From Seongchinamella unica (GTDB lineage: Bacteria; Pseudomonadota; Gammaproteobacteria; Pseudomonadales; Halieaceae), in the NCBI RefSeq assembly GCF_004354085.1, contig NZ_SMSE01000001.1, positions 1-47,235 on the forward strand: a DNA stretch of 47,235 bases, written 5' to 3'. Position numbers and translations under genes: made by a program. How positions within the stretch are numbered: the stretch's first letter is position 1; each line of letters starts with the position of its first letter. Below the pieces are notes generated by a model. It did no database searches. It had not been told where the DNA came from and saw only the letters and a program-made list of their open reading frames with translations. This document shows, piece after piece, positions 712 to 16,187 of the stretch.

Positions 712-1814
712 AAACTCTTTCTACCGTTTCGATTTTGATATTTTTCCTGGGGGCCGTATCTTTGGCTCTAGCGGGCAATAGCAGTGGCGCTGGGCAACAA
801 GACGGCGGCGCAAAGCTTAAATACGTCGAATTCAGCCAACTTGGTAATCCCGCAGAAGTACTCGTAGTAAAGGTAGACGCGCCGCGATCATTAAAGAACG
901 GTGAAATAAGAGTACGAGTGCTGGCTACCCCAATTCACCCATCAAATTTGTTACAAATAGCCGGTAAATATGGCGTTGAACCCGCATTACCCTCCACTCC
1001 AGGTAGCGAAGGCGTAGGCCGGGTGGTAGAGACCTCCGCTGAGGTGACTAACCTGGTCGTGGGCCAACTGGTGCTTCTTGCCGGTGGTGGAACCTGGCGT
1101 GATGAAATAGTTGCACCGGCAGCCAATTTTATTCCCTTACCTGATCTTGGCAGTCCGAGTACTGCGGTGATCGAACAACTTTCTATGACGACGGTGAACC
1201 CGCTTACTGCATTACTCATGCTGACTTCCTTTGTTGAACTTGAAGAAGGCGACTGGCTTGTGCAGAGCGCTGCAAATTCTGCAGTTGGGGGATATGTTAT
1301 CCAACTCGCAAAACAACGTGGAATAAAGACGGTTAATGTTGTTCGCCGAGAGGGCTTAGCCGAGGAGATGATGTCAAAGGGTGCAGATGTCGTATTGATC
1401 GATGGGCCAGATCTTGCCGATCAAATTGCCAGTGCTACTGGCAATGCGCCTGTTTCACTCGCAATCGATGCCGTTGGTGGTGAAACGTTTACTCGCCTGG
1501 CTAAGAGCCTCGGCCATGGTGGTACTCTAGTGGCTTATGGCGTACTGTCTGGGAAGCCCGCGACCTTAAATACAGCAATAACGATTTTTAACGACATTCG
1601 TATAAGGGGATTTTGGTTATCAAAATGGTTTGAAACAGCCGGGATGAAAGAAAAGCAGGCGGCCTTCGGAGAAATTATTCCGTTGATTGCCAGTGGCGCT
1701 CTAAAAGCCGATGTTGATTCTCGCTTTACCGTTGACGAGATCAAGCAAGCAGTCTCGCGCGCTGCGCAACGTGGCAGGAATGGCAAGGTACTTATTGTGC
1801 CAAACCCTGGCTAA
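708..1814 (+). CDS. Exported medium-chain dehydrogenase/reductase, 2-enoyl thioester reductase-like
   Basis: The 368-residue product starts with a clear signal peptide (MKTLSTVSILIFFLGAVSLA, cleavage near LALA-GNSS) and continues as a complete MDR-superfamily reductase. The groES-like catalytic fold (about residues 35-155) includes ATPIHPSNLLQIAGKYG and PGSEGVGRVVE; the Rossmann domain (about 180-300) includes QSAANSAVGGYVIQLAKQRG and LAIDAVGGETF. This pattern is closest to mitochondrial-type trans-2-enoyl-CoA/ACP reductases and quinone-oxidoreductase relatives that lack zinc. Such enzymes normally work in the cytoplasm with NADPH, so a secretion signal is odd. It overlaps the upstream transporter remnant by ATGA; AGGA about nine bases upstream can serve as ribosome binding site. 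The physiological substrate is unknown. Confidence 0.75.
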   Translation: MKTLSTVSILIFFLGAVSLALAGNSSGAGQQDGGAKLKYVEFSQLGNPAEVLVVKVDAPRSLKNGEIRVRVLATPIHPSNLLQIAGKYGVEPALPSTPGSEGVGRVVETSAEVTNLVVGQLVLLAGGGTWRDEIVAPAANFIPLPDLGSPSTAVIEQLSMTTVNPLTALLMLTSFVELEEGDWLVQSAANSAVGGYVIQLAKQRGIKTVNVVRREGLAEEMMSKGADVVLIDGPDLADQIASATGNAPVSLAIDAVGGETFTRLAKSLGHGGTLVAYGVLSGKPATLNTAITIFNDIRIRGFWLSKWFETAGMKEKQAAFGEIIPLIASGALKADVDSRFTVDEIKQAVSRAAQRGRNGKVLIVPNPG

Positions 1815-1869
1815 TAGTGCTTGACTGCAGATTGGAGCAAGAGTTCGATACTTCTCGCGCCATTTCCAA

Positions 1870-2082
1870 CTAGCGACTGAGCACCACGCGATAGCGCGCG
1901 TTGCCACTTTCAAAACGCGCTATCGCTTCGTTGACCTGGTCAAAGCGAAAATGCTCTGTTTCGGGCTTAACATTATGGCGAGCGGAGAATTCCAGCATCT
2001 GCGCCATCGTGGTGGGACTCCCAACCTGGGAAGCTGAGACTGATTGCTGTGCATGCAGCATCGGTGGTACCAGTATTCCCAA
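1870..2082 (-). pseudogene. Zinc-type NAD(P)-dependent alcohol dehydrogenase, C-terminal fragment
   Basis: The minus-strand frame ending at 1870 has QVGSPTTMAQMLEFSARHNV followed by KPETEHFRFDQVNEAIARFE and SGNARYRVVL. This is the standard C-terminus of zinc alcohol dehydrogenases of the YahK/AdhA type (the GS-P-T motif binds the cofactor and the VNEAI-R helix closes the domain). An in-frame TGA lies directly upstream of 2082 and the catalytic zinc domain is missing, so only the last 70 or so codons survive. It faces the tail of the intact MDR gene, leaving two convergent dehydrogenase 3' ends 55 bp apart. Confidence 0.7.
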
Positions 2083-2261
2083 TGGCTCACCCTGGAGCTG
2101 ATGAAAAAGGACTTCCCCATCGAATGGGAAGCCCAGCGCTCACACTTCGGGCTAAGTCAACTCCCCCACTAGTGACTGGCGAAAACGCCGTTAGAGAAAA
2201 CAGGCGATTCTGGACCTGACGGCACGTCTCCCAATCACTGTTACGCTAGTTCCAGAAATGC

Positions 2262-2285
2262 AAAAGCCCGCAATTTGCGGGCTTT
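2262..2285. terminator. Palindromic hairpin, possible intrinsic terminator
   Basis: AAAGCCCGCAA and TTGCGGGCTTT form an 11-bp perfect stem around a one-base loop. This AAAGCCCGC...GCGGGCTTT form is the common layout of bacterial intrinsic terminators, with the A-run and T-run pairing, so it could act in both directions. After the stem the sequence is CGCGT rather than a longer T-run, and no intact gene ends just before it, so it may be a leftover of a lost gene. Confidence 0.5.
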
Positions 2286-2341
2286 CGCGTGATTCTGCGG
2301 CAAGACCAGGGAGTCTCTGTCTCTACTGCAGACTGTATGGC

Positions 2342-2424
2342 GGTGGAGGCAGTCTCAAGAGTGATCGCATCCCTACTCTGGAGACGGTTTTCGCGCGTGA
2401 ATGCCTGGGGTGGAGGCAGTCTCA
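2342..2424. repeat. Pair of 16-bp direct repeats
   Basis: GGTGGAGGCAGTCTCA occurs exactly at 2342-2357 and 2409-2424, with a 67-bp period. The intervening sequence is not itself repeated. No third copy was seen in the window and neither copy lies in a recognised gene; function unknown. Confidence 0.5.
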
Positions 2425-2694
2425 CCAGGTATCGTCTCCAGAAATTTCCCTGAAAGCGGGAAATCTACAGGGAATGATGTAAATCTCATGGTTGCCCTGC
2501 CTCCTACCCTACTCTAACCTTCTGTTTTTATTGGTACTTTTTCCGGCGCTCATGTTTAACACCAACAAGTAACAGGGAAATATCAGGGAACTCTACCTGC
2601 CGACCCCCAAACACTTGTCCGGATGATATCTTGTTAAGCGTTCACACTCCGAGGAGTTACTGGGTTCAGGACCACTGCACGACATTTGTAAGTG

Positions 2695-2722
2695 TTGACA
2701 AATGCGTACGCCTTAGCGTACG
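2695..2722 (+). promoter_or_regulatory. Promoter and operator of the toxin-antitoxin pair
   Basis: A consensus -35 TTGACA lies at 2695-2700 and a weak -10 (TACGTT) about 18 bases later. Between and over them sit two copies of GCGTACG (2704-2710 and 2716-2722), each containing the palindrome CGTACG. Type II antitoxins of the YefM/Phd class repress their own promoter through such short palindromes, so this is the expected autoregulatory operator. GGAGGTG (2734-2740) is a strong ribosome binding site for the antitoxin ATG at 2745. Confidence 0.65.
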
Positions 2723-2744
2723 TTGATTTGTCTGGAGGTGCCTT

Positions 2745-2987
2745 ATGACAACACTGAATGCTACAGAAGCTCGATCCAGGCTCTATGCCCTGATCGATGA
2801 AACCAGCGATAGCCACGAACCCATCCTGATCACAGGCAAGCGGGGCAACGCCGTCCTGCTGGCCGAAGAAGATTGGAATGCTATCAACGAAACGCTGCAC
2901 TTGCTCTCCTTACCCGCCATGCGTGAATCCATTCGTGAAGGGCTAGCGACCCCCCTCGATGAGTGCGATCGCGAGATTGACTGGTGA
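2745..2987 (+). CDS. yefM: YefM/Phd-type antitoxin
   Basis: An 80-residue protein with the YefM/Phd fold: TLNATEARSRLYALIDET is the N-terminal DNA-binding helix region, and HEPILITGKRGNAVLLAEED followed by WNAINETLHLL is the conserved core that dimerises. The C-terminal tail (MRESIREGLATPLDECDREI) is the acidic segment that wraps and blocks the toxin. It is preceded by a strong GGAGGTG ribosome binding site and a palindromic operator. The stop overlaps the toxin GTG by four bases (GTGA), the usual arrangement that couples toxin translation to antitoxin synthesis. Complete by length and motif. Confidence 0.9.
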   Translation: MTTLNATEARSRLYALIDETSDSHEPILITGKRGNAVLLAEEDWNAINETLHLLSLPAMRESIREGLATPLDECDREIDW

Positions 2988-3247
2988 CCTGGACACTTCA
3001 TTACACGAAGCAGGCTCAAAAAGACGCCCGAAAGCTCGCCTCTTCGGGATTGAAAGACAAGGCCCAGGAGTTACTGCGGATAATTGAGAACAACCCGTTC
3101 CAGACCCCACCACCCTATGAAAAGCCGGTCGGAGATCTCGCTGGCACATATTCCCGCCGGATCAACATCCAGCACCGTTTGGTCTACCAGGTACTGGAGA
3201 AGGAGAAGGCCATCAAGGTCTTACGGCTATGGACTCACTACGAATAG
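2984..3247 (+). CDS. yoeB: YoeB/Txe-type mRNA interferase toxin
   Basis: An 87-residue RelE-superfamily toxin that cuts mRNA in the ribosomal A site. It opens MTWTLHYTKQAQKDARKLAS, has NPFQTPPPYEKPVGDLAGTY and SRRINIQHRLVYQV, and ends KVLRLWTHYE. The central Glu (in PPYEK), the Arg of the SRRIN/HRLVY segment and the terminal HY pair match the YoeB catalytic set, so the enzyme looks intact. It starts with GTG inside the antitoxin stop. A 20-base piece of its 3' end (3204-3223) recurs inside an insertion-element scar at 17127-17146, showing that this locus or a relative has been rearranged nearby. Confidence 0.9.
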   Translation: MTWTLHYTKQAQKDARKLASSGLKDKAQELLRIIENNPFQTPPPYEKPVGDLAGTYSRRINIQHRLVYQVLEKEKAIKVLRLWTHYE

Positions 3248-3272
3248 CCTCAAAGATGACAAGGCCGCCTAC

Positions 3273-3797
3273 ATGGTCGTATTGAGAGGAACCCATAAGC
3301 TGCTGAAGGTTTTGCACACGACAGCAAGCCCCTCCGATTTTTCCGATACTGCTCTCGGCGACTGGTATATCAACCGGATTGTTGTCGATCGCCAACCTCT
3401 GCTGCTCTGCGTAGTGGCGAACTCGTTGCTCGCCATGATTACACCTGCGCGAGACGTGAAAAACCTGCCACAACATTTTCCAGAGCTTGTTCAGAACCGA
3501 CTCCAACGGCTCGGCGCTGACCAGACCACTGTCGATGCCGAGGTGGCAGCAATGCAAGCGGTAATGGTGGGTAAAACACAGGATCGCTCGGTAGTTGGTA
3601 CGATGGTCGATTTCGCCAAAGTTATACCTTACTACCTGCCCATCGGGGGCTGGGAGATGGAAGACTTGGAGATCGCTGAAGACAAGCTTGCCGAAACCCC
3701 CTGCCGCTGCGGACGAGCACAAGCGACGATCTGGCCCGGCCGCGATTCGCTGAGGCTGTTGCAGACGCGATGGCAGCCGGTTGGAGATGTGCATTAG
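3273..3797 (+). CDS. DUF6933-like protein of unknown function
   Basis: From ATG 3273 a 174-residue protein begins MVVLRGTHKLLKVLHTT and contains TALGDWYINRIVVDRQPLLL followed by CVVANSLLAMITPARDVKNL. Those two blocks (ALGDWY then a strand ending in N-SLL--I-P) match the pattern I know for DUF6933 proteins; the end has KLAETPCRCG and SLRLLQTRW. No catalytic role is known to me. It starts 25 bp after the toxin stop with only a weak ribosome binding site and may be read from the toxin-antitoxin promoter. The open frame extends further upstream in antisense-like sequence over the toxin; that extension is not credible. It ends just before the truncated transposase. Confidence 0.6.
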   Translation: MVVLRGTHKLLKVLHTTASPSDFSDTALGDWYINRIVVDRQPLLLCVVANSLLAMITPARDVKNLPQHFPELVQNRLQRLGADQTTVDAEVAAMQAVMVGKTQDRSVVGTMVDFAKVIPYYLPIGGWEMEDLEIAEDKLAETPCRCGRAQATIWPGRDSLRLLQTRWQPVGDVH

Positions 3798-3813
3798 CGA
3801 AATAGGAACTCTA

Positions 3814-4683
3814 ATGACTCAGTCATTTTCCATAATTATTCGACCTTCCACCCTACTCCGATTTCACGCTGCGCTTGTAAAACGGAAATACCAGAAACTG
3901 TATTCCACCCATGGAGGCAACAAGCCCGGTCCCAAAGGGCCGTCCAGAGATGTGATCAATGCCATAGTCGAGATCAAACATCGGAACCCTCGGTTCGGAT
4001 GCCACAGAACTGCACAGCAGATCAATCTGGCTTTCGGGTTGGACCTGAACAAGGATACTGTCCGGCGCATACTGGCCGCTCACTATAAACCAGAGCCTGG
4101 TGGCGGCCCCTCTTGGCTTACAGCTCTCGGCCATGCGAAGGATAGCTTATGGAGTATCGATCTTTTTCGCACCGGATCCATCTCACTCAAAGCACACTGG
4201 ATCATGGTGGTGCTGGATCAGCACACCCGCAGGATAATTGGTTTTGGAGTGTGTGCCGGCGATGTGGACGGACGCAGACTGTGCCGGATGTTCAATGAGG
4301 CTACTCGCAATCAAGGCTGGCCTCGGCACGTCAGCTCCGACAATGATCCGCTATTTCAATATCATCGCTGGAAATCAAATTTGCGAGTTCTCAAAATTGA
4401 GGAGGTGAAATCTCTGCCACATGTGCCGATGTCGCATCCGTTTGTAGAACGATTGATCGGGAGCGTCCGTCGAGAACTACTGGATCAGAGTTTTTTCTGG
4501 ACTGCGGAAGATCTGGAGAAAAAACTGAAAGCTTACCAGCAGTATTACAACGAATCTCGATGCCACTCCAGCCGGGAAGGTGCGCCTCCGGTGGGGATTG
4601 CCAGCAATAAGGTCGCTGATCTCGATCAGTATCGCTGGGAAATGCACTGTCGCGGACTCTTTCGCCTACCAACAGCGGCCTGA
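3814..4683 (+). pseudogene. Integrase-core transposase, 5'-truncated (element copy 1)
   Basis: From about 3829 the protein matches the C-terminal three quarters of a DDE integrase-core transposase: STLLRFHAALVKRKY, GNKPGPKGPSRDVINAIVEI, the first Asp in DSLWSIDLF, the second in SSDNDPLFQY, and the Glu in HPFVERLIGSVRRELLDQ. A second, longer copy at 12706-13776 has some 80 extra N-terminal codons, which are absent here, so this copy lost its 5' end even though all three acidic residues remain. ATG 3814 is the first plausible start. The 3' flank AATTCGCCAGGGACA (4690-4704) recurs after copy 2 and probably marks the element end. Confidence 0.75.
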
Positions 4684-4689
4684 ATTACG

Positions 4690-4704
4690 AATTCGCCAGG
4701 GACA
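4690..4704 (+). repeat. Putative right end of the insertion element (copy 1)
   Basis: AATTCGCCAGGGACA follows the transposase stop by 6 bases; the identical 15-mer follows copy 2 at 13783-13797, and a 13/15 match lies at 17109-17123. Conservation outside the coding region at the same distance points to a terminal repeat. No clear partner left end was found. It lies 15 bp before the AraC start, so it now forms part of that gene's leader. Confidence 0.55.
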
Positions 4705-4718
4705 AGGAATGGATTGCG

Positions 4719-5933
4719 ATGCGATTGATTGAGATGGACTCTACGGCTCTGAGCGCATTGCTGGGCTTGTCTCTTGTTGGGTTTATCGCTCCACTTCTGT
4801 GGTTCCAGGCGCGCGACAATCGTCGGGCCAGTGAGTATCTGGCCGTATTTGTCCTGATTGTGGGAGTCAGTCTGCTGCAAACCTTCTTGCTGCACAGCGG
4901 GCTGACGCGACGCTATCCATGGGTTTCAGGTCTGGGGCAATTTTTATTCTTTGCACTGGGACCACTGCTTTTTCTATACACGAAAACACTCACCGACCGC
5001 GAATTCAAGTTTTCCGGCAACGTGGCCTGGCACTTCCTTCCGGTATTGTTCAGCCTACTGCTGTACTTGCCTGTGTATCTGCAAACAACGGAGGCCAAGC
5101 AGGCAGCCGCCGAGTTGTATTTCGCACAACATGTGAGCGCCCAGGACCAGGCTTATCAGCTGGCAGTGCTGCCAATGGCATCAAAAATCTATGCCATACA
5201 GTTCGTGGCGTTGATGTTCCACCTTGGTAGTTATGCTGTGCTGGTACTTTGGCAACTGGAAAAACACCGCAGGCGTATTGAACTGGTTTTCTCTGATATT
5301 GAGCTGATTAACCTTAACTGGTTGCGCTGGCTCAATTGGCTGGTGCTGGCAGTAAGTTTGATCTCTTTGGTGTTTTTGATGCTGCGGCTCTTTTCCCAGG
5401 ACCCTGTATCCTCAGGGGGCCGTGTGGTTCCGGTACTGGTGATGTTCCTACTAATTTATTACGCCGGCTGGATGGGTGTCCGCCAACCGCAGATATATGG
5501 TACGCAGGCCAATAGTAGTGACCCTGGAGTTGAGGGCGGTGATAGCGAATCCAAATACCACAACACAGGTCTGTCTGCGGCAGATGCCGAGAAGCACTGG
5601 CAGCGATTGCAGCATGCCATGGACGAAGAGCAACCTTATCTACGCAGTGGCCTGACGATCAAGCAACTGGCAGACACTCTGGGGATGTCGACGGCCCACT
5701 TGTCGCAGGTGATAAACAGCCGGGCTCAGGTGACCTTTTTTGACTACATTAATAGCCAGCGGGTCGCCTATGCGCAACGTCTGCTGGCTAACCCCGACCA
5801 CAAGCAGCGTAAAGTGCTGGATATTGCCCTGTCCTCCGGGTTCAGTTCAGAGTCTTCTTTTTATGCCCAGTTCAGAAAACATGCCCAGTGCACCCCCAGC
5901 CAGTACCGTCGCCAACTGCAGACGCAACGTTAA
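4719..5933 (+). CDS. AraC-family regulator with N-terminal membrane domain
   Basis: A 404-residue protein with about seven hydrophobic segments in residues 10-245 (for example ALLGLSLVGFIAPLLWF, FLFFALGPLLFLYT, VPVLVMFLLIYYAGWMG) followed by a soluble linker and a C-terminal AraC double helix-turn-helix (about 300-400) with IKQLADTLGMSTAHLSQVIN and LDIALSSGFSSESSFYAQF ending in TPSQYRR. Proteins of this layout sense a signal at the inner membrane and activate neighbouring genes. It precedes the TonB receptor in the same orientation and is the obvious candidate regulator of the lipid-scavenging genes. AAGGA, 10 bases upstream of ATG 4719, supports the start; the leader abuts an insertion-element end, so its promoter may be altered. 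Confidence 0.85.
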   Translation: MRLIEMDSTALSALLGLSLVGFIAPLLWFQARDNRRASEYLAVFVLIVGVSLLQTFLLHSGLTRRYPWVSGLGQFLFFALGPLLFLYTKTLTDREFKFSGNVAWHFLPVLFSLLLYLPVYLQTTEAKQAAAELYFAQHVSAQDQAYQLAVLPMASKIYAIQFVALMFHLGSYAVLVLWQLEKHRRRIELVFSDIELINLNWLRWLNWLVLAVSLISLVFLMLRLFSQDPVSSGGRVVPVLVMFLLIYYAGWMGVRQPQIYGTQANSSDPGVEGGDSESKYHNTGLSAADAEKHWQRLQHAMDEEQPYLRSGLTIKQLADTLGMSTAHLSQVINSRAQVTFFDYINSQRVAYAQRLLANPDHKQRKVLDIALSSGFSSESSFYAQFRKHAQCTPSQYRRQLQTQR

Positions 5934-6113
5934 AACGCCATCTTTCTCCTTTTTCGCCTCCTGACTTCTAAGATCGGAGGTCTGCAGCCCTTGCCATGTG
6001 CTTGTATTGAGCTGCAGTAGGGATTCGGTGGTCGTGTGGATACATGGGAACGCCGGGTATCTAGTCACCAGATGGAGCACAACTCCATCCGAAGAATAAG
6101 AAAAGGAAAGCGT

Positions 6114-8345
6114 ATGCAGCCCACATCTCCATCCCGTTGGATACTTGCACCGGTCGTTGCCGCCAGTCTGGCTAGTGCCAATATGCCCGTTTCGGCCCAG
6201 GATCTGGTGATCGAAGAAGTACTTGTCACAGCTCAGAAACGCGTCGAAAGTGCGCAGGACATCCCCGTCGCACTCACCGTCATCAGCGGAGACATGATCG
6301 ATAGTATTGGCATTCAGTCGACCACAGACCTGGTCAAGATTGCACCTTCGTTGACCGTCAGAGAGGCAAATCACGCCCAGAACAGTGCCTTCAGTATACG
6401 GGGTATTGGCACGATCACGTTCGGAATCGGCGTAGAGCAGAGTGTAGCGGTTATTGTAGACGAGGTTGCCGCCGTACAGTCCGGACAGACGATGGCGGGC
6501 TTGATGGATATAGAGCGGGTAGAGGTCTTGCGCGGGCCCCAGAATACCCTGTTTGGGAAAAGTGCCTCGGCAGGATTGCTGAGTATTACCACCAAAGCAC
6601 CCAGTGAAGAATTGGAATCGTACCTTGTATTGACTGCTACCGACGATGATGAAACCAAGGTGGCGGCATCGATATCTGGCCCATTGGGCGATAGCCTGGG
6701 CTATCGATTGAGTGGAATCTGGAGCGATCGCGACGGTTACATTCGTAACTTGACTGCTGGGGAGAAAGACAAAAACGGTAGCAAAAACAAGAATATACGC
6801 GGCAGACTTAGATGGGATGTTAACGAGACTATACAGACTGACTTTACCGCTTATTACATGAAAGATGAAACCAACTGTTGCGCGAGGGTGTGGACGGAGT
6901 TTGACCCCGAGGCAAAACTCTTCGGGTTTATTCCTGAGGCGGTTGCCGAGGGTATTACACCCGGAGAAGACAACCAGGATTTTCGTGCCGATGACGGGCC
7001 ACAAAATGACTCGACCACCAGGGGCGCTAACGTAAAAGTGAACGTCGAACTGGGTGAATTCACGCTGACGTCAATCACCGCTGTCGATAACTGGGAGTTC
7101 AACGTTAACCAGGATGTCGATTTCGGGGATATTGACGTATTGAAGTATTTGACAGGCGGTCGCGAAAGCGGCGGCCTGTATTCAGTGGGGTGGTTTGAAA
7201 CTGACTTTTTCTCTCAGGAAATTCGCATTGCCTCGCCAGCTTACGACAGCTATGACTATGTGGTCGGCCTGTACTATTCAGATGCTGAAACCAAGCGAAC
7301 CTTCTTCCGCAACCTGAGCCTTGCTCCCGCCGACTTTGCGTCCAGCGCCGGAAACGAAAACCTGGGCCTTTTCGGCCAGCTGACCTGGCGATTTACCGAC
7401 AGCACCAGCATCACCGGCGGGTTGCGCTGGATCAAAGAGGAAATATCGGCAGATTACGAAAACTTCGCCAACGCCGAGGACACTCCCTTTTCAGACACGG
7501 CCAGCGATGAACAGGTCGTAGGTAAGCTGTCGCTGCAGCACTTTATTGGCGAGGATACGATGGCCTTCGCCAGCTATACGCGGGGCTATAAAGGCCAGGT
7601 GTTTGATCTCGATGTGGGGGTAAGGAACCTGATCGACCCCGAGACATCGGACTCTTACGAGATCGGTGTGAAAGGTAACCTCTGGGAGAGGCGGTTACAG
7701 CTTAACCTCGTGGCGTTCTATACAACCTACGAGGGCTTTCAGGTGCAGCGCGCGGAAATCGTCGATGATGTCATCAGATTCGAGCTGAACAACGTGGGCG
7801 AGCTCAATACGCGTGGTGTCGAACTGGAGAGCATCGCCTTATTGAGTCCGAATGCGACCCTGACTTTCAACGCTGCGTATATTGACGCGGTCGTGAATGA
7901 CTATGACGGTGCGAGCTGTTACACCGGGCAAACTGAAGAGCAGGGCTGTGTTAACCAGGCTCAGACCATTGATGGTGGCAGCCTTCCCTATGCTCCCGAG
8001 TGGAAATATACAGCGGTGCTGGACTACCAACTGCCGCTGGACACCATGCCCTTTGATGCCTTCGCAAACCTGCTGTACTCCTGGCAGGATGACACGCTCC
8101 TGTCGATTAACCAGAACCCCAACCTGACGCAAGACAGCTATGGAGTCGTCAATTTACGGCTGGGCGTCAATGACAAGGCCAGTCGTTACAGCGTAACGCT
8201 GTTTGCCAATAACCTGTTGGATGAAGGCTACGCCACCAGCAAACTGGACGTCTCAAGGCTTTTCGGCAATGCCACGGCGCGGGCGCAGGTTACGCCTCGC
8301 AGTACTCAGCGCTACTTTGGGGTAGAGGCCCGGTTCAACTTTTAG
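6114..8345 (+). CDS. TonB-dependent outer-membrane receptor
   Basis: A 743-residue receptor with signal peptide (SRWILAPVVAASLASANMPV, cleavage after SAQ), TonB box region DLVIEEVLVTAQKR, plug domain (about 45-160: DIPVALTVISGDMIDSIGIQ, SIRGIGT, IERVEVLRGPQNTLFGKSAS) and a 22-strand-type barrel ending in the aromatic VEARFNF. ATG 6114 is preferred over the earlier in-frame start because AAGGAAA sits just upstream and the signal peptide begins there. These proteins pull bulky substrates across the outer membrane using TonB-ExbBD energy. Sequence alone does not identify the ligand; the next genes (phospholipase C, phosphatase, sugar permease) suggest a phosphoinositol-type compound or lipid. 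Confidence 0.9.
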   Translation: MQPTSPSRWILAPVVAASLASANMPVSAQDLVIEEVLVTAQKRVESAQDIPVALTVISGDMIDSIGIQSTTDLVKIAPSLTVREANHAQNSAFSIRGIGTITFGIGVEQSVAVIVDEVAAVQSGQTMAGLMDIERVEVLRGPQNTLFGKSASAGLLSITTKAPSEELESYLVLTATDDDETKVAASISGPLGDSLGYRLSGIWSDRDGYIRNLTAGEKDKNGSKNKNIRGRLRWDVNETIQTDFTAYYMKDETNCCARVWTEFDPEAKLFGFIPEAVAEGITPGEDNQDFRADDGPQNDSTTRGANVKVNVELGEFTLTSITAVDNWEFNVNQDVDFGDIDVLKYLTGGRESGGLYSVGWFETDFFSQEIRIASPAYDSYDYVVGLYYSDAETKRTFFRNLSLAPADFASSAGNENLGLFGQLTWRFTDSTSITGGLRWIKEEISADYENFANAEDTPFSDTASDEQVVGKLSLQHFIGEDTMAFASYTRGYKGQVFDLDVGVRNLIDPETSDSYEIGVKGNLWERRLQLNLVAFYTTYEGFQVQRAEIVDDVIRFELNNVGELNTRGVELESIALLSPNATLTFNAAYIDAVVNDYDGASCYTGQTEEQGCVNQAQTIDGGSLPYAPEWKYTAVLDYQLPLDTMPFDAFANLLYSWQDDTLLSINQNPNLTQDSYGVVNLRLGVNDKASRYSVTLFANNLLDEGYATSKLDVSRLFGNATARAQVTPRSTQRYFGVEARFNF

Positions 8346-8459
8346 CCCGTCATTCGGTGTGCCAGCTAGCGTGGGCCTCGCCGCCTATCGCCAGTTGGAG
8401 GAATACCAGCGACGTTGGCCCGAATCGGCAAGCGTAAATCCATCAGGCAGGACGAATGT

Positions 8460-9686
8460 ATGAACTTTCGTAAATTGCTTTGCAACCCGCTCTTGCTCGT
8501 AGTAGGGGCGTTGGCGGGGATCAGTATAGCCGCAGCAGCCAGCGAGCTTACACAACCTCGGCTCAATCAAATCCAGGTGATCGGCACGCACAACAGCTAC
8601 GCCCAGCCTCCCGACCCAAGAACAATGGCGATCATGGCGCCGAGACTACAAGCCATATTTGAAGCCATGTTCGAAAAAATGTCTCCACAAGAGAAGACCA
8701 AATTTGCAGAAGAGCACCCGGTCTTGCTCGAGCAAGGTTTTGGTGCATCGCTGGACTACGTTCACCCACCCCTGGAATACCAGCTGCGTGCCGGGCTGCG
8801 CAGCCTGGAAATAGATCTCTACGTGGATCGCGAAGGGGGACGCTTTGCCGACCCTTTGCCGTATCGACAACTGCGCGCAGCGGGAGAGAAAAACCTGGCA
8901 CCGCTATATGACGATGCCTTGCGGGAAACGGGCCTGAAAGTACTGCATGTAGCGGATGTGGATTTTCGCAGTTACTGTCCGACTTTCAGGATCTGCTTAA
9001 CGCAAATGCTACAGTGGTCCGAGCAAAACCCGGGACATTCACCGGTATTCGTCTTGCTGGAACCGAAACTGCCGGGGCTGGACCGGGCTATACCAGGGGC
9101 GGCAGAAGTAGAAGCCTTTTCCGGGTCGGACTTCGATGAGATGGACAACAGCATACGCGAGGTCCTGGGTCGGGAACGGGTCTTTGCGCCGGATGACCTG
9201 CGCGGCACGGCGCCTACGCTGGAACACGCCGCATTGATTCAGGATAATTGGCCCGGGCTTGATCAGTCACGTGGTAAGTTTGTGTTCTTGTTGCTGGTGC
9301 CGGGTGAGAACTTCAGTGCGCTTTCTCCCTATATTGCCAACAAGCCATCCCTTGAAGGGAGAATGGCGTTCATGCAGGGTAAACCCGGCATGCCCCATAC
9401 TGCCTTTGTCATGGTGGACAATCATCTCTCCGACCCCGCTGTTATTCCCTCCCTGGTCAAGCGCGGTTATCTGGTGCGCTCCCGCGCTGATATCGACACC
9501 CATGAAGCATTGCTGAACGCGACAGAACGCAGGGATAAAACGCTGGCCAGTGGCGCACAAGTGATATCAACTGACTTTTTTACGCTGCCCAATATATACG
9601 GCAATAGCTATTCGGTTACCCCTTTTTCCGGCGGCGCGCGCTGTAACCCGGTTAACTCGGCGAGCAACTGCTCAATCGGTCAGTGA
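8460..9686 (+). CDS. Ca2+-dependent phosphoinositide-specific phospholipase C-like enzyme
   Basis: From ATG 8460 the 408-residue product has a signal peptide (NPLLLVVGALAGISIAAAAS) and the motif order of the bacterial PI-PLC-C1 family (Pfam PF16670 as I recall): LNQIQVIGTHNSYAQPP with catalytic-type His44, HPPLEYQLRAGLRSLEIDLY with acidic metal ligands Glu117/Asp119, GLKVLHVADVDFRSYC with His163, and FVLLEPKLPG. The two His and the acidic residues support a TIM-barrel phosphodiesterase cleaving phosphatidylinositol-type head groups, probably in the periplasm or outside the cell. It lies 114 bp after the receptor and 54 bp before an alkaline phosphatase. The family is sometimes linked to other phosphodiesters, so the exact lipid is inferred. 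Confidence 0.8.
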   Translation: MNFRKLLCNPLLLVVGALAGISIAAAASELTQPRLNQIQVIGTHNSYAQPPDPRTMAIMAPRLQAIFEAMFEKMSPQEKTKFAEEHPVLLEQGFGASLDYVHPPLEYQLRAGLRSLEIDLYVDREGGRFADPLPYRQLRAAGEKNLAPLYDDALRETGLKVLHVADVDFRSYCPTFRICLTQMLQWSEQNPGHSPVFVLLEPKLPGLDRAIPGAAEVEAFSGSDFDEMDNSIREVLGRERVFAPDDLRGTAPTLEHAALIQDNWPGLDQSRGKFVFLLLVPGENFSALSPYIANKPSLEGRMAFMQGKPGMPHTAFVMVDNHLSDPAVIPSLVKRGYLVRSRADIDTHEALLNATERRDKTLASGAQVISTDFFTLPNIYGNSYSVTPFSGGARCNPVNSASNCSIGQ

Positions 9687-9740
9687 TTGCATAAGAGAAA
9701 ATGACCAGACCAGACGCGTAGAATTTCCTGGAGAGCATTT

Positions 9741-11261
9741 ATGCTTCGCACAGCCCGACCTTATCTTGCAGGGCTTTTTCTTCCGGCATTGTTGTCTCTT
9801 TCATTTCCCGGCAGCACAGCGACGCCAGAGTTGTACTTACCTCAAGCGAATAGCAATTGGTTCGTTGTGGCACAGGAAACCTTGCACAAGAATCTCGCGC
9901 ATGCGCCGGTGAAAGGCAAAGCGAAGAGTATTATTCTCTTTATTGGTGATGGCATGGGTGTCAGCACAGTGACGGCATCGCGCATCTTTGAAGGGCAGTC
10001 CCTGGGCATGATGGGCGAAGACCATGTTCTTGCCTGGGAGGTGTTTCCCAATGTGGCCCTGTCCAAGACTTACAACGTCAACCAGCAGGTGCCGGACTCA
10101 GCAGGTACCGCCACTGCGTTCATGACCGGCGTTAAAACCAAAGCCGGGGTTATCTCAGTAGACCAGTCGGTAACGCGAGGCGACTGTCTTTCATCCAGAG
10201 GGCATCATGTGACAAGTTTTCTGGAGCTTGCAGAACAGAGAGGCCTGGCTACGGGTATCGTAACCACGTCACGATTGACGCATGCGACCCCAGCGACGGC
10301 CTACGCGCATGTTCCGGAAAGGGATTGGGAGAATGATGTAAACGTTCCGCTGGCAGAGAAGGCAGCGGGCTGCAAGGATATTGCACTGCAATTCCTTGAG
10401 TTTCCTCACGGTAACGGTATTGAGGTGGCGTTTGGCGGCGGTCGAGAAAATTTTCTGCCCCTGTCTCTTGTTGATGGGGAAGGGGATGCAGGGAAAAGGG
10501 CAGACGAGAGAAACCTCATTGCAGAGTGGCGACAGAAATACCCTGATGGCAGGTATATCTGGAATGAGGCAATGCTCAGAAAGTTGTCCTCTCAGTCCGC
10601 AGGTCCTGTTCTGGGCCTCTTTGATGCAAGCCATATGGCGTTTGAGGCGGACCGTGTTGAAGACGTCGGTGGGGAGCCTTCACTGGCAGCCATGACAGCA
10701 AAGGCACTGCAGATCCTGCAACAACACAAGGACGGCTATTTTCTGCTTGTTGAAGCCGCGCTGGTGGACAAAGGGCATCATGCCGGGAATGCTTATCGTG
10801 CTTTAAGCGAGACGGTTGCCCTGGCCGAGGCGGTGGACAAGGCATTGGAGATGACCAGCCGGAGTGACACCTTGATTATTGTCACCGCTGATCACTCGCA
10901 TACCTTAACCATGGGAGGAGCACCGACGAGGGGCAATCCTATTCTGGGCAAAGTACGTGCGAATAATAAGTATGGTAAGGCACAGGACGTATATGAGAAG
11001 GCCCTGGATGACAAGGCCTATACCACTCTGGGCTACCATTACGGCCCGGGTGCCACCCTGGAAAAACACCGTACGGACGTCCATAACACTGACACTTCGG
11101 CAAAAAACTTCAAACAACCCTCCCTGGTTCCACTGCGGGAGGGGATGCATGCCGGCGAGGATGTTGCGGTTTATGCGCGCGGTCCGTCGGCTCATCTAAT
11201 CAGAGGCGTGGTTGAGCAAAACTACCTTTACCACGTGATGGTTCACGCCGCCCGCTTATAA
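9741..11261 (+). CDS. Exported alkaline phosphatase
   Basis: A 506-residue PhoA-superfamily phosphomonoesterase with an N-terminal signal (PYLAGLFLPALLSLSFPGST). SIILFIGDGMG gives metal-ligand Asp70; VPDSAGTATAFMTGVK gives nucleophile Ser120; VEAALVDKGHHAGN and IIVTADHSHTLTMGG supply the remaining zinc ligands. Length and motifs are complete. GGAGAG upstream of ATG 9741 is a good ribosome binding site. In this neighbourhood it would remove phosphate from the inositol phosphate (or other phosphoester) released by the phospholipase C encoded just upstream, giving inositol for the permease downstream; this link is inference. Confidence 0.9.
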   Translation: MLRTARPYLAGLFLPALLSLSFPGSTATPELYLPQANSNWFVVAQETLHKNLAHAPVKGKAKSIILFIGDGMGVSTVTASRIFEGQSLGMMGEDHVLAWEVFPNVALSKTYNVNQQVPDSAGTATAFMTGVKTKAGVISVDQSVTRGDCLSSRGHHVTSFLELAEQRGLATGIVTTSRLTHATPATAYAHVPERDWENDVNVPLAEKAAGCKDIALQFLEFPHGNGIEVAFGGGRENFLPLSLVDGEGDAGKRADERNLIAEWRQKYPDGRYIWNEAMLRKLSSQSAGPVLGLFDASHMAFEADRVEDVGGEPSLAAMTAKALQILQQHKDGYFLLVEAALVDKGHHAGNAYRALSETVALAEAVDKALEMTSRSDTLIIVTADHSHTLTMGGAPTRGNPILGKVRANNKYGKAQDVYEKALDDKAYTTLGYHYGPGATLEKHRTDVHNTDTSAKNFKQPSLVPLREGMHAGEDVAVYARGPSAHLIRGVVEQNYLYHVMVHAARL

Positions 11262-11319
11262 GTGTAAGAAAAGCCGGCAATCAGCATGGTCAGAATAGCG
11301 AGAACAACGGAGACCCCAT

Positions 11320-12639
11320 ATGGCAGGGCAGCACGTTTCAACCAACGACATGGCAGCGGGTAATCAAGCCCAAGGCAATACGACGAACGGAGTAGATCAG
11401 GATACGCCGGGTAAATATCTCCCTGCGCTGACCGCGCTTACCATGTTGTTCTTTACCTGGGGCTTCATCACCTGCCTCAATGACATTCTGATTCCCCACC
11501 TTAAAGCCGTTTTTGACCTCAATTACACCGAGGCCATGTTGATTCAGTTTTGCTTTTTCGGGGCCTACTTTCTCATATCATTGCCAGCCGGGGCGCTGGT
11601 CAAGCGCATTGGTTACGGTAGGGGTGTTGTCATCGGTCTACTCGTTGCAAGTTTAGGCGCACTGCTTTTTTATCCAGCTGCCAGTTATTTGAGGTATCCG
11701 CTATTTCTGGGCGCACTGTTTGTCCTGGCATCTGGCATCACCGTATTGCAGGTTTCAGCGAACCCCTACGTTGCGGCGCTGGGAAGCCCTCATACGGCTT
11801 CCAGTCGTCTTAATATGACGCAGGCCTTCAATTCACTGGGGACTACTGTTGCACCTTTTATCGGTGCCGTGCTAATACTTTCAGTCTCGACAACGGGGCT
11901 GGATGCCGAGGCGGGAAAACAGGCCCAGGCGGATGCGGTGAAGCTTCCCTATATACTGCTTGCGAGTATTCTTGCAGTAATGGCGATCATGTTCAGCCAG
12001 CTAAAGTTGCCTGTCATTCACTCCCACCACGCTACGCAACAGACACCGACGGAAAACGGCAGCATATGGTCTCAGACGCATCTCGTACTCGGCGCTTTAG
12101 GCATTTTCCTGTACGTTGGCGCAGAGGTGGCTATAGGCAGCTTTTTGGTGAACTTTCTCGCTCAGGAAAATATTGCCGCAATGGAAGAATCGCAGGCGGC
12201 TCATTACATTGCCTACTATTGGGGGGGCGCGATGGTGGGCCGTTTTATCGGCGCAGTCGTCATGCGGTATGTCAAGCCGGGGCGGCTACTGTGCTGCAAT
12301 GCTCTATGCGCTGTTATTCTTGTCACGACTGCAATGTTGGGCAGTGGCAGTCTGGCGATGTGGGCGATTCTACTGGTAGGTTTGTGCAACTCAATCATGT
12401 TTCCCACGATCTTTTCGCTGGCAATTGCCCAGTTGGGAACACATACCAGTCAGGGCTCCGGGATAGTGTGCCTGGCTATTGTGGGCGGCGCGATTGTGCC
12501 GCTTGTGCAGGGCGTCGCCGCAGATAGCCTGGGATTGCAGCAGGCCTTTATCATTCCGCTTCTGTGTTATATCTATATTGCCTACTATGGATTGCGCGGC
12601 TCTATCCCTGCTAAGTCCGTGTGCATGGCGAATCAGTAA
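11320..12639 (+). CDS. FHS-family (FucP/GluP-like) sugar:H+ symporter
   Basis: A 439-residue twelve-helix MFS transporter of the fucose-glucose-galactose permease family. Signature parts are [20 protein letters not shown] in helix 1, [20 protein letters not shown] in helix 2, [13 protein letters not shown] and [20 protein letters not shown]. It has a polar N-terminal extension of about 30 residues. GGAG is placed properly before ATG 11320, 58 bp after the phosphatase. Substrates in the family are free sugars or polyols, fitting uptake of the dephosphorylated product of the upstream enzymes, possibly myo-inositol; no inositol-catabolism genes are present in the window. Just beyond its stop is insertion-element copy 2. 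Confidence 0.85.
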
Positions 12640-12705
12640 CTGTCTAATACTATCAGACTCCTAGCACTTGCTACCACACGCACCTGAATATTACCGTCGG
12701 TCGCT

Positions 12706-13776
12706 ATGAACGGCGCGATCTTGCTACTTTTACATCGACCTTCCGCACTTGCCAAACTACTCCGGCCTGGTGGATACCGCACCGTCATTGCCGAGAATCT
12801 ACTCTTGGAGCAGCCACTCATCATTCACAGCCGAGCACGCCAGAGAGCGCCGAATTTGAATACTCAAGATCGCACGATATTGGGATTCTTATCAATATTC
12901 TTGAGCCCCGGACGGGTTCGACGAGTAGCCGTCATCATCCAGCCATCCACCTGACTCGCCTTTCACAAAGCCCTGAAGAAACGGAAGTATCACCTCCTTT
13001 ACTCTCCCCGTGGAGGAAGGAAGCCAGGGCCGAAAGGACAGTCAGAGGAGGTCATCGCAGCAATCGTGGAAATGAAACAGCGAAATCCACGATATGGCTG
13101 TCCTCGCATCGCACAGCAGATCAACTTGGCTCTTGGTTTAGACCTGGTAGTCCGGCGTGTGTTAGCGGTCCACTACAAACCAGATCCCGCTGATCGCGGC
13201 CCCTCCTGGCTGACTACCCTCGGTCATGCAAAGGACAGCCTATGGAATGTAGATCTATGCTGTGCCGAGTCCATCACTTTAAGGACCCACTGGATCATGG
13301 TGGTTATGGACCAGTACACGCGCAGGATTGTTGGCTTTGCCGTCCACGTTGGAGACGTCGATGGCCCCGCAGCCTGCCGTATGTTCAACGATGCTACTTC
13401 TGGCGAAGGCTGGCCGCAGCGGCTCAGTTCTGACAATGATCCCCTGTTTCAATATCGGCAGTGGAAAGCCAATCTCAATATCCTCAACATCGAGGAAATC
13501 AAATCGTTACCCTCCGTTCCCATGTCACACCCGTTCGTTGAGCGACTCATTGGCAGCGTTAGGCGAGAACTGTTGGATCAGACTCTCTTCAGGACTCAGA
13601 CCGACCTCGAAAAAAAGTTGCGCGCCTATCAACTGTATTTCAACAAGAACCGGTGTCATTCCAGCCGCAGCGGCGCAACGCCAGTCGAGTCTTCAGGCAC
13701 GAAAGTCATTGATCTGAACCATTACTGCTGGAAAAAGCACTATCGAGGTCTCTTTCTACTTCCAGTGGCGGCTTGA
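12706..13776 (+). pseudogene. Integrase-core transposase with internal stop (element copy 2)
   Basis: One continuous frame from ATG 12706 to TGA 13776 is broken only by TGA at 12952-12954. The N-terminal part (LAKLLRPGGYRTVIAENLLL, RQRAPNLNTQDRTILGF) is the region missing from copy 1. After the stop come KRKYHLLYSPRGGRKPGPKG, Asp in DSLWNVDL, Asp in SSDNDPLFQY and Glu in HPFVERLIGSVRRELLDQ. A three-codon deletion (GLDLVVRR here, GLDLNKDTVRR in copy 1) is also present. The copies align along their whole shared length but differ at roughly a third of positions by eye, so they are old relatives rather than a recent duplication. Both lie on the plus strand and flank the phosphoinositide genes. 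Confidence 0.8.
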
Positions 13777-13782
13777 TTTAAC

Positions 13783-13797
13783 AATTCGCCAGGGACA
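13783..13797 (+). repeat. Putative right end of the insertion element (copy 2)
   Basis: AATTCGCCAGGGACA, identical to 4690-4704 and at the same distance after the transposase stop. It marks the boundary between copy 2 and the HxlR-regulated module. Confidence 0.55.
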
Positions 13798-13874
13798 GGT
13801 ATATCAATTGGATTTTCATCGATCGCCAACTCACATACAAGGGTAACTTGTCAGCACCATACCCGTGGCAGTCA

Positions 13875-14543
13875 TCACTGACCCGGTGCGAACATACAGT
13901 TCGACATCCATTGCGAGACATTTTTTGTCAGCATACCTGGACCAACCAGTTTGAGATCACCTGAGTTAATTTCCTTTCTGTACGTTGTCTCAACCATCCA
14001 GATATCCGACAAGCACTTCACGGTGGAGGTGAAATAAACGTCGGGCTCTTTTCCCGGATCGATAGTGCATAAATCAACTTCCATACCGTTTACGAGAATC
14101 CACCAGTCCGGTTGCTGTTCGATATCGGTAAAGTGAAACTTAATGACAGTTTCCTTACCGGGTAAGTTACCTGGCTGAATGCTTCTCCTCAGGTAAGTCA
14201 TAAGAAAGTCCACATCGAAGTCGTTACTGGTCAGGTGCACCCTGGTCCAGCGCATGCCCCAATTACCAATATCTATAAAGATTGGCAGTAATTCTTCAGC
14301 AGATTTTGTCGGCAGGTACTCATGCCCCTTCTGTCCGGGCAACTTTTTCTTCACTATCAGGCCGTACTCCGCCAGTGTAGACAAGCGTTTAGTCAAAACA
14401 GCAGGCGATATCATACTTAGCCCTCTTTGCAGCTCGTTGAACCGGGAACTTCCCATAAGAAGCTCCCTGAGGATGAGTATTGTCCACTTCTCACCAAGAA
14501 TCTCGGTCGCTTTTGCTATGGGGCAGAACTGGCCATACTCCAT
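13875..14543 (-). CDS. HxlR-family transcriptional regulator
   Basis: A 222-residue winged-helix protein. EYGQFCPIAKATEILGEKWT has the conserved N-terminal Cys, and ILILRELLMGSSRFNELQRG with SMISPAVLTKRLSTLAEYGL is the HxlR DNA-binding domain; the beta wing is VKKKLPGQKGHEYLPTKSAE. Residues about 110-222 form a longer C-terminal part with an alpha/beta look resembling SCP2-like ligand-binding extensions seen in some relatives; this is tentative. ATG 14543 has GGGAGA at good distance and is preferred to GTG 14567. It is transcribed away from the AhpD-like gene across a region with a perfect palindrome, so it probably regulates both directions. Confidence 0.85.
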   Translation of the reverse strand: MEYGQFCPIAKATEILGEKWTILILRELLMGSSRFNELQRGLSMISPAVLTKRLSTLAEYGLIVKKKLPGQKGHEYLPTKSAEELLPIFIDIGNWGMRWTRVHLTSNDFDVDFLMTYLRRSIQPGNLPGKETVIKFHFTDIEQQPDWWILVNGMEVDLCTIDPGKEPDVYFTSTVKCLSDIWMVETTYRKEINSGDLKLVGPGMLTKNVSQWMSNCMFAPGQ

Positions 14544-14585
14544 GGTTTTCTCCCGCTGATTGAGCACTTATAGTAACTTCATTCT

Positions 14586-14627
14586 ACATAGTTAGTAACT
14601 ATGTTTTGCATAGTTGGTTGCTATACG
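14586..14627. promoter_or_regulatory. Palindromic operators between HxlR and the AhpD-like operon
   Basis: ACATAGTTAGTAACTATGT at 14586-14604 is a perfect 19-base palindrome around a central G. GCATAGTTGGTTGCTATAC at 14609-14627 is a degenerate second copy (both contain CATAGTTnGT) placed 23 bases along, about two helical turns. The location between divergent regulator and operon, and the symmetry, fit a dimeric winged-helix repressor or activator binding two sites. Confidence 0.6.
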
Positions 14628-14703
14628 AAATGAAGCAGTCTGCTCCTGCCTTTCGGTGCATGATGCTATCGCGTTGCACAACAACCAGATCGGAGATAGA
14701 CAT

Positions 14704-15291
14704 ATGAATACGTTCAAGGCACATACGGTTGATACGGCGCCCAGCGATTCACATACAGCGCTGCAAAGTGTGAAGGAAAGCATTGGCTTGCTCCCCAATG
14801 TATTCGCGGCCATTGCAGAGTCACCACTGGCACTGGAAACCTTCGTCACTCTTAACGGCGCCTTTGCAGAATCATCCCTGAGTCCAGAAGAGCAGCAGAT
14901 AGTACTACTTGCCACAAGTACAGAAAATAACTGTGTTTACTGCGTGGCAGGCCATACGGCTTTTGCAAACCAGATAAACATGCCACAGCGGGATGTGGAC
15001 GCGATGCGAGAAATGAGACCACTCGAAGACGAAAAACTACAGGCGCTGAACAAGCTGGTTCGCCAGATGGTAAGAGGCCGGGGCCGCGTATCTGAGACTG
15101 ACATCGAGAATTTTCTGGCCGCAGGTTACAGCCGGCAGCAGTTCTTCGAAGTGATCATTGGCGTCTGTGTCAAAACCTTCAGTAACTACGTGAGTATCGG
15201 GCTGGAGCTCGAACTTGATGCTGCCTTCCAAACGTACGCCTGGGAAGGACGAAATGCGAAAGCGACCAACCAGGAGTATGCCAGACAATAA
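14704..15291 (+). CDS. AhpD-like carboxymuconolactone decarboxylase-family protein
   Basis: A 195-residue all-alpha CMD/AhpD-fold protein. ENNCVYCVAGH carries the redox pair Cys77/Cys80 and His84 typical of alkylhydroperoxidase-D-like proteins, which pass electrons to peroxidase partners or act as weak peroxidases. GLLPNVFAAIAESPLALETF and ALNKLVRQMVRGRGRV are typical flanking helices. GGAG before ATG 14704 supports the start. It heads a co-directional set with PhzF-like and second CMD genes, divergent from HxlR; HxlR proteins often answer to reactive electrophiles or oxidants, so a stress or detoxification role is plausible but unproven. Confidence 0.85.
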   Translation: MNTFKAHTVDTAPSDSHTALQSVKESIGLLPNVFAAIAESPLALETFVTLNGAFAESSLSPEEQQIVLLATSTENNCVYCVAGHTAFANQINMPQRDVDAMREMRPLEDEKLQALNKLVRQMVRGRGRVSETDIENFLAAGYSRQQFFEVIIGVCVKTFSNYVSIGLELELDAAFQTYAWEGRNAKATNQEYARQ

Positions 15292-15349
15292 CTGGCCACC
15301 TGCGCCTCCTCTTTAGGCAAGGTCGCACCCAAACCAGAGGTCCACCTGA

Positions 15350-16138
15350 ATGAAGCTTAATGTCCATTACATCGACGCATTTACTGATTCATTATTCAAA
15401 GGCAATCCCGCCGCAGTCATTATTTCAGACACATGGCTGAGCGATGAACTGATGCAGTCAATCGCGGCAGAAAACAACCTCTCCGAAACTGCCTTTGCCG
15501 TCAAGACGAAAGCGGGTTATCGTATTCGCTGGTTCTCTCCCCTGACGGAGATAGAGTTCTGCGGTCACGCAACTCTGGCCACAGCTTACGTGCTGTTTAA
15601 TCAGTACAGCAAGTTAAGATCAATCAACTTCTATGCCAAAGCCGTTGGGGAACTTGAGGTCCATAAAGCCCGGGATGGTTTTATCCAAATGATATTTCCA
15701 AACAGAATGCCTGAGCCAGTCGATGATATCCCTGAAGCACTGATTGACGGCCTGTCCATTAAACCTACTGAAGTCTACGTTAATCAACAAGCCTATTTCG
15801 CTATTTATAGCGATGCAGAGCAGGTTTTTGCGGTTGAGCAGGACCAGGATAAAATCAGGCAACTCAAGCCTTACGATGTGACCGTTACAGCACCAGCGGC
15901 GGGCTATGATTTCGTGTCACGTTATTTCTGGCCTGCCAATGGCGGCGATGAAGACCCGGTTACCGGCTCCATACACACCGGCCTTGCGCCATTCTGGTCC
16001 GAGCGACTGGGGAAACAGGATTTAAGGGCTTATCAAGCCTCCAGGCGCGGTGGCGAACTGCTGTGCAAAGTGGATAGAGACAGGGTTTTCATCCAGGGCA
16101 AAGCGGTGAGCTATCTCTCGGGAATTATCGAAATCTAA
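15350..16138 (+). CDS. PhzF-family isomerase/epimerase-like protein
   Basis: A 262-residue PhzF/DapF-fold protein: YIDAFTDSLFKGNPAAVI, LSETAFAVKTKAGYRIRWFS and PLTEIEFCGHATLATAYVLF in the N-terminal half, and AAGYDFVSRYFWPANGGDED with DPVTGSIHTGLAPFW in the second. The catalytic-type Glu (in LSETAF) and the Asp of EDPVTG are present. It is somewhat shorter than usual (about 280-300), because the linker between the halves around QLKPYDVTVTAP is short, and the usual GSAHC is GSIHT. PhzF relatives isomerise or hydrate small cyclic acids; most have no known substrate. It sits 58 bp after the AhpD-like gene in the same operon. Confidence 0.85.
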   Translation: MKLNVHYIDAFTDSLFKGNPAAVIISDTWLSDELMQSIAAENNLSETAFAVKTKAGYRIRWFSPLTEIEFCGHATLATAYVLFNQYSKLRSINFYAKAVGELEVHKARDGFIQMIFPNRMPEPVDDIPEALIDGLSIKPTEVYVNQQAYFAIYSDAEQVFAVEQDQDKIRQLKPYDVTVTAPAAGYDFVSRYFWPANGGDEDPVTGSIHTGLAPFWSERLGKQDLRAYQASRRGGELLCKVDRDRVFIQGKAVSYLSGIIEI

Positions 16139-16187
16139 ATACACACGGAGCACCCAATTATTTGATAGCCCTCAAAGGAGACACTGG

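Follow-up and report, generated by a model that had tools for sequence, protein, structure and literature searches.

The question raised by five genes of Seongchinamella unica, at positions 4719-12639 of the DNA stretch analysed here (the window, 47,235 nucleotides at the start of contig NZ_SMSE01000001.1), is whether inositol lipids are scavenged by a dedicated gene set and, if so, what the cell gains from them. Algae, fungi, plants and animals contain inositol lipids, which constitute a reservoir of organic phosphorus and of headgroups with sugars, and bacterial phospholipases C acting on phosphatidylinositol (PI-PLCs) have mostly been discussed as virulence factors or soil enzymes. A first-pass annotation, made from the sequence alone, had read the five-gene cassette as a chain in which phosphatidylinositol is cut, the product dephosphorylated and the inositol imported. 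According to our analysis the early steps of this interpretation hold up, and the final one is doubtful. The cassette is real and conserved and looks functional, and we consider it, with a probability of roughly 0.6, to be a transferable unit for scavenging inositol-(glyco)phospholipids, from which phosphate and possibly a sugar are gained, perhaps under the control of an AraC-type protein.

Genes and proteins of the cassette

The proposal of five co-directional genes holds to the nucleotide, since five intact open reading frames (ORFs), all on the + strand and tightly spaced, occupy exactly these positions and match the corresponding family profiles:

4719-5933, + strand: AraC/HTH_18 regulator (Pfam HTH_18, 1.2e-20, residues 317-399)
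6036-8345, + strand: TonB-dependent outer-membrane receptor (Pfam Plug 4.3e-16, TonB barrel 1.1e-34)
8415-9686, + strand, likely start ATG 8460: predicted exported PI-PLC (PF16670) of the Ca2+-dependent type (PI-PLC-C1, 3e-92)
9741-11261, + strand: predicted exported alkaline phosphatase (PF00245; Alk_phosphatase 1.1e-128)
11320-12639, + strand: GluP-like permease of the FHS family of MFS transporters (MFS_1 5.2e-20; TIGR01272 match)

The AraC/HTH_18 protein, presumed to be the local regulator of the cassette, has a long N-terminal half that looks membrane-embedded when judged by eye. The receptor is devoid of a CarbopepD domain, and a scan of nine window proteins, located at the cassette and to its left, gave no SusD match.

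The key enzyme is the PI-PLC, which scores 309.6 bits against the PI-PLC-C1 profile PF16670 (cut-off 29.9) and covers positions 2-329 of its 329. Numbered from ATG 8460, H44, E117, D119 and H163, which we take to be the catalytic residues of the PI-PLC-C1 family, are present at the exact positions listed in the first-pass annotation, as are D70 and S120 of the alkaline phosphatase, and the four PI-PLC residues are invariant in a 51-sequence alignment that includes the window's enzyme. An AlphaFold model of the PI-PLC (mean predicted local distance difference test, pLDDT, of 92.7) found 3h4w as its best structural match, followed by the 5fyr, 5fyp and 5fyo chains and then by eukaryotic phospholipases C (PLCs). 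The predicted fold thus matches best that of solved bacterial Ca2+-dependent PI-PLCs. Besides this fold, Streptomyces antibioticus PI-PLC1 (3h4w) and the Pseudomonas sp. enzyme (5fyo/5fyp/5fyr) have in common with it a core segment around W-S-D-x-H-P-x-H; the window's enzyme (408 residues) is some 90-120 residues longer, at an identity of 13-18%.

The solved chains nearest to the alkaline phosphatase are of animal origin (mammalian intestinal and placental enzymes, 2.7e-113 to 5.8e-110), the best E. coli-type chains scoring about 1e-36. The permease passes the NCBIfam gluP profile (TIGR01272) with 405.2 bits (cut-off 202.55) and falls short of fucP (267 bits, cut-off 280.4), and it has Gln144 where FucP carries a Glu in the 'letaanp' stretch. 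On these scores it belongs to the glucose/galactose-type (GluP) subfamily.

A selected unit in two surroundings

Among eight genomes of the genus, a PLC match at 1e-20 was found in three, the window's own (G000), G002 (87% identity) and G004 (40%). The gene order is not unique to the window, as the whole block is present in a second species, G002, the sole other carrier among the eight, with all five genes in the same order and 83-98% identical at the protein level (96% for the receptor). When 20 kb of the window were compared with 16 kb of G002, a single homologous DNA block emerged (window 4705-12614, 88.6% identity over 7,914 columns) and nothing else matched between the two. The neighbours differ accordingly: in G002 (contig C27) the cassette has a sulfatase-family gene on one side and a DUF3604 gene on the other, and in the window it is bounded by two IS481-like transposase genes, the right one broken. 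Ka/Ks, the ratio of non-synonymous to synonymous substitution rates between window and G002, is 0.05-0.16 across the five genes (0.09 for the AraC gene), which indicates that all five are under purifying selection. Because it is intact in G002 with different flanks and shows such low ratios, the cassette can be regarded as a selected unit in two surroundings that apparently behaves as transferable. Identity to G002 is mosaic, with 96-99% in 4705-5704 (AraC gene) and 7205-7704 (receptor) and 82-91% elsewhere in the block, as if the high-identity patches stemmed from recent recombination.

Two genes flank the cassette in the window:

3781-4683, + strand: IS481/IS3-like transposase (Pfam and NCBIfam), left flank, outside the shared block
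12922-13776, + strand: second IS481-like transposase, right flank, with one in-frame stop (TGA); 12922-13773 at 68% protein identity

A recent composite transposon was considered and rejected, since the two transposase genes are 71% identical over a 209-nt segment, the right one is broken and none lies beside the G002 copy, the G002 relatives of the left gene being on contig C23, away from its cassette on C27. No empty site was found with flanks 1-3000 and 13800-17000; their matches in other genomes of the genus are short or partial (the longest 911 bases at 70%, in G004), so that an uninterrupted site is unreadable. A plasmid home was rejected too, as a blastn search with 4705-12614 matched 19 plasmid records, none over more than 80% of the query and at most 11% among the matches listed.

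PI-PLC neighbourhoods in other genomes

A profile scan of named genomes gave at least 587 relatives of the PI-PLC (at least 597 stretches), and the neighbourhoods of the best 80 were compared, so that the fractions below tilt to window-like enzymes. Counts come from family searches over all ORFs (gene calling had picked antisense frames at high GC). As to GH92 labels, the query made from a GH92-PLC fusion (locus L088) mislabelled some PLCs, and the GH92 entry of L098 is an error.

In 42 of the 80 loci the end of a same-strand TonB/SusC-type receptor gene lies less than 500 bases upstream of the PLC match, and in 19 more it lies 500-2200 bases upstream, the intervening gene being SusD (13), a metallophosphatase-type gene (4) or another (2). 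A further three loci have a close divergent receptor. Background sampling at least 5 kb upstream or 0.5-8.5 kb downstream met a same-strand receptor in 0 to 6 of the 63-80 loci covered. Within the 80 best matches, PI-PLC genes thus repeatedly come with a receptor shortly before them, and this part of the receptor-PLC-phosphatase-permease chain put forward in the first-pass annotation stands, its import of inositol as a nutrient being left without support (see below).

In a tree of 81 PLCs, from which L046, L054, L070 and L090 were left out because their matched stretches contain a frame break or a stop, the window's enzyme falls in clade A (46 rows, support 100/98), with members from sphingomonads, Stenotrophomonas, Brevundimonas, Janthinobacterium, Weeksellaceae and Sphingobacterium. 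Members of clade B (34 rows, 92/83) come, among other taxa, from Pedobacter, Mucilaginibacter, Hymenobacter, Flavobacterium, Acidobacteriota and Acetobacteraceae. When 13 order-wide PLCs were included in a second tree, clade A held (100/99) minus L114, and the clade-B rows split into two groups, which makes clade B only a working label. For neighbour counts (4.2 kb upstream, 3 kb downstream), the four omitted loci and L114 were assigned by hand. The 45 clade-A loci thus comprise 42 with a receptor, 17 with a TetR and 16 with an AraC gene, and 13 with an MFS_2/GPH-like permease, whose NCBIfam gph matches fall below cut-off; the 35 clade-B loci comprise 27 with a receptor, 14 with SusD, six with an alkaline phosphatase and seven with a metallophosphatase-type gene. 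An MFS_2/GPH-like symporter and a TetR regulator join receptor and PI-PLC in L039, L040, L050, L063 and nine other clade-A loci.

The pairing with phosphatases and sugar-type permeases also recurs, in line with what had been proposed for the window. Five Pedobacter loci have receptor, SusD and PLC followed directly by an alkaline phosphatase, and one of them, L109 (Pedobacter sp. Leaf194), reads SusC, SusD, PLC, alkaline phosphatase, PHP, alkaline phosphatase, FHS. It resembles the window in placing an outer-membrane receptor, a PI-PLC, an alkaline phosphatase and an FHS permease on one strand, and differs in its SusC plus SusD, an extra CehA/McbA-type enzyme and a second phosphatase. Since the Pedobacter phosphatases (26-29%) and the L109 permease (31%) are so distantly related to the window's, the two gene sets were probably recruited independently, more than once. 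In L097 (Gluconobacter oxydans, 8917-11232), directly downstream of a TonB receptor, PI-PLC-C1 is even fused to a histidine phosphatase (His_Phos_2), and in L088 (a metagenome-assembled genome, 293-3760) a 1155-residue protein joins GH92 domains to PI-PLC-C1, hinting at mannosylated inositol lipids as a possible substrate. GH92-family genes and DUF218 stand beside the PLC in L007, L023, L042, L043 and L044 and nearby in L087 and L096.

The recurrence of receptor-coupled PI-PLC loci suggests dedicated feeding on inositol lipids by many environmental bacteria, and such loci supply gene sets with a directly testable substrate. Polysaccharide utilisation loci combine a regulator, a receptor, exported hydrolases and an inner-membrane permease in one block. 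The window's block shares this plan but has neither glycosidase nor SusD, and its hydrolases would act on phosphoesters. A tentative generalization, to which we give somewhat less than even odds, is that clade-A PI-PLCs mark a hitherto undescribed class of substrate-induced loci for inositol-glycolipid utilisation in Pseudomonadota and Bacteroidota, a lipid-headgroup counterpart of polysaccharide utilisation loci. In such loci one and the same lipid-cutting enzyme would repeatedly have been combined with varied receptors, with AraC or TetR regulators, with MFS_2/GPH-like or FHS permeases, and with phosphatases and GH92 mannosidases, the window's block being a mobile, self-contained version.

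PI-PLC genes also occur on plasmids. In L006, the small Zymomonas mobilis ZM4 plasmid pZZM405, the gene is divergent from a TonB receptor (5284-9098), and Zymomonas accounts for 14 of the 23 plasmid records that match the PLC.

A model for the cassette

The most economical reading of the cassette is a sequence of cutting, uptake, dephosphorylation and import. The PI-PLC, secreted or periplasmic, would cut phosphatidylinositol or another inositol-phosphate-containing lipid or headgroup. The TonB receptor would carry the water-soluble inositol-phosphate piece, or a deacylated uncut headgroup, across the outer membrane. The alkaline phosphatase would then release phosphate and the FHS permease would import the remaining small sugar or polyol. 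The AraC protein would turn the block on in response to substrate rather than phosphate starvation. This model builds on what can be read from sequence, namely the five genes, their conserved residues, the predicted fold, purifying selection, the two surroundings and the recurrent receptor-PLC, PLC-phosphatase and PLC-permease neighbourhoods; from these we infer substrate, cellular location, order of steps, permease cargo and induction.

As to regulation, a consensus-type Pho-box pattern occurs three times in the window where 3.61 are expected by chance, and it was found neither in the gap before the AraC gene nor in that before the receptor. Membership in the PHO regulon thus found no support at the sequence level. 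The presence of an AraC gene in the cassette and the unremarkable Pho-box count favour substrate induction, but weakly. Terminator-like sites number 11 (8.6 expected).

Several observations weigh against this model. The first product of bacterial PI-PLCs is often a cyclic inositol phosphate, and since an alkaline phosphatase would not be expected to open that ring, this is a weak point of the proposed mechanism. The window's PI-PLC is only 13-18% identical to solved PI-PLCs in structural alignments. A close receptor is missing from 16 of the 80 loci; of these, three have less than 5 kb of upstream sequence, two have a receptor 3.2 kb upstream, past DUF218 and GH92, and two have a divergent receptor about 1.8 kb away. 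In the window's order, where 15 of 293 genomes have a PLC match, the receptor lies directly upstream in only two of the 14 other loci (L023 and L030); in L032 the PLC is immediately preceded by an MFS_2-type permease and immediately followed by a metallophosphatase-type gene. Coupling to a receptor is not universal in this PI-PLC family. Outside the genus the nearest relative is L036, which has a receptor end (74% identical to the window's receptor over 139 residues), a PLC and an alpha/beta hydrolase, but no alkaline phosphatase or FHS permease within its 10.8 kb. An alkaline phosphatase near the PLC was seen in none of the 45 clade-A loci, and only in the window and G002 was a clade-A PLC seen together with both an alkaline phosphatase and an FHS permease. 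Finally, a promoter scan found no coding-strand site and one minus-strand site, against 5.5 expected.

Alternative explanations

The rival that survives best, a real possibility although we would not favour it, is pure phosphate scavenging, in which the permease is incidental or takes up a leftover polyol that is not catabolised. Its precedent is PUSI of Flavobacterium johnsoniae (Fjoh_4168/9 and Fjoh_4172/3), which combines PusCD1 with two phosphodiesterases, Fjoh_4172 and Fjoh_4173, assigned to PF00149 and PF16670 (the names in the published table look swapped), and whose transcripts increase by log2 6.4 to 10.7 when phosphate is depleted; its proposed role is to scavenge phosphodiesters, lipid headgroups among them (Lidbury et al. 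2020, PMC8115612). As far as the available text of that paper goes, PUSI resembles the window in that a TonB-type transporter is accompanied by two phosphoesterases, one of them a Ca2+-dependent phosphoinositide PLC (PF16670). It differs in its SusD-like PusD, its PF00149 phosphoesterase and its induction by phosphate depletion, where the window has a lone receptor, an alkaline phosphatase, an FHS permease and an AraC gene, neither a sugar permease nor an AraC regulator being named for PUSI in that text. The receptor-PI-PLC principle is, on the same source, already published for Bacteroidetes, which qualifies the claim of the first-pass annotation that no unit of this kind had been described. 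Apart from PUSI, no account of such a locus was found in the open-licence literature searched, and none of clade-A loci, of AraC, GPH or FHS variants or of PLC fusions. The strong induction of PUSI, the alkaline phosphatase directly downstream of the window's PLC and the missing inositol catabolism genes (see below) would all fit phosphate scavenging. However, the use of phosphate needs neither a dedicated AraC regulator nor a sugar permease, the Pho-box counts given above show no excess, and the window's PLC falls in another clade than two Flavobacterium PLCs (L095 and L106), the F. johnsoniae protein not being among those compared.

Somewhat less probable still is that the substrate is a glycosylated inositol phospholipid (a glycosylphosphatidylinositol anchor, or a mannosylated or uronosylated inositol phosphoceramide), the hexose of which is imported by the FHS permease. 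The GH92 and DUF218 genes by or near the PLC in seven loci, the GH92-PLC fusion of L088, the MFS_2/GPH-like permeases in 13 of the 45 clade-A loci and the GluP-like character of the window's permease point this way. However, there is no glycosidase in the block of either the window or G002. Both this and pure phosphate scavenging are narrower versions of the inositol-(glyco)phospholipid scavenging that we favour.

The full chain of the first-pass annotation, in which the FHS permease takes up inositol released from phosphatidylinositol and the cell uses it as carbon, is unlikely. The gene set fits it, as do the sugar-type permeases that recur in the vicinity of receptor and PLC (in 13 of the 45 clade-A loci and in L109) and the phosphatase-PLC fusion of L097. 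Nevertheless, neither of the genomes carrying the cassette, G000 and G002, has a match to KduI/IolB (PF04962) or IolE (TIGR04379) or a match over cut-off to IolD (TIGR04377). Utilisation of inositol as carbon through the iol pathway was rejected on these grounds, non-iol routes not having been searched. The iolB profile (TIGR04378) is over cut-off in four of 50 PLC-bearing genomes (those of 46 of the 80 loci, plus G000, G002, G004 and G047), 19 more having weak matches under it. Moreover, the one sibling genome with a full iol cluster, G005, in which IolB, IolD and IolE are all positive, has no PLC match at 1e-20; its iol stretch holds a different MFS transporter and no match to the window's FHS permease, itself of the glucose/galactose type. 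That stretch (L130, C2:36001-56000, 1658-17552) encodes a TonB receptor, an organophosphate-antiporter-like MFS protein, an inositol-monophosphatase-family protein, IolE, IolD, an IolC-type kinase with a DUF2090 domain, a GFO/IDH-type dehydrogenase, a phytase-family (PF02333) protein and KduI/IolB, and looks like a phytate or inositol-phosphate locus. The use of inositol for the cell's own lipid synthesis was considered as well and rejected: inositol-phosphate synthase (PF07994) has no match in any of the eight genomes of the genus, which says nothing on salvage. As the known iol carbon route is absent as far as searched, phosphate, with or without a sugar, is the likeliest gain for the cell under inositol-(glyco)phospholipid scavenging, and the missing iol genes raise the sharp question of what the permease imports.

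A chance neighbourhood of five genes between two insertion-sequence remnants, which the IS481-like genes on both sides might suggest, is very improbable given the same order in G002 without such flanks, purifying selection on all five genes and a receptor-PLC pairing that recurs in three phyla.

Neighbouring genes and repeats

About 4.8 kb from the cassette, on the - strand of the window (17391-18431), lies a gene for an outer-membrane-type phospholipase A1 (PF02253, 7.9e-83), which could be a phospholipid deacylase. A DUF6933 gene (3084-3797) adjoins the left transposase, and a 37-nt piece (13794-13830) that is 84% like part of this gene lies by the right one; the DUF6933 gene and the IS481-like element are maybe a recurring pair. 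Positions 1-123 of the window have a further copy on contig C6 (100% over 123 nt) and positions 2086-2343 two further copies on C1 (87-89% over 258 nt), and both stretches are possibly repeats or small mobile elements.

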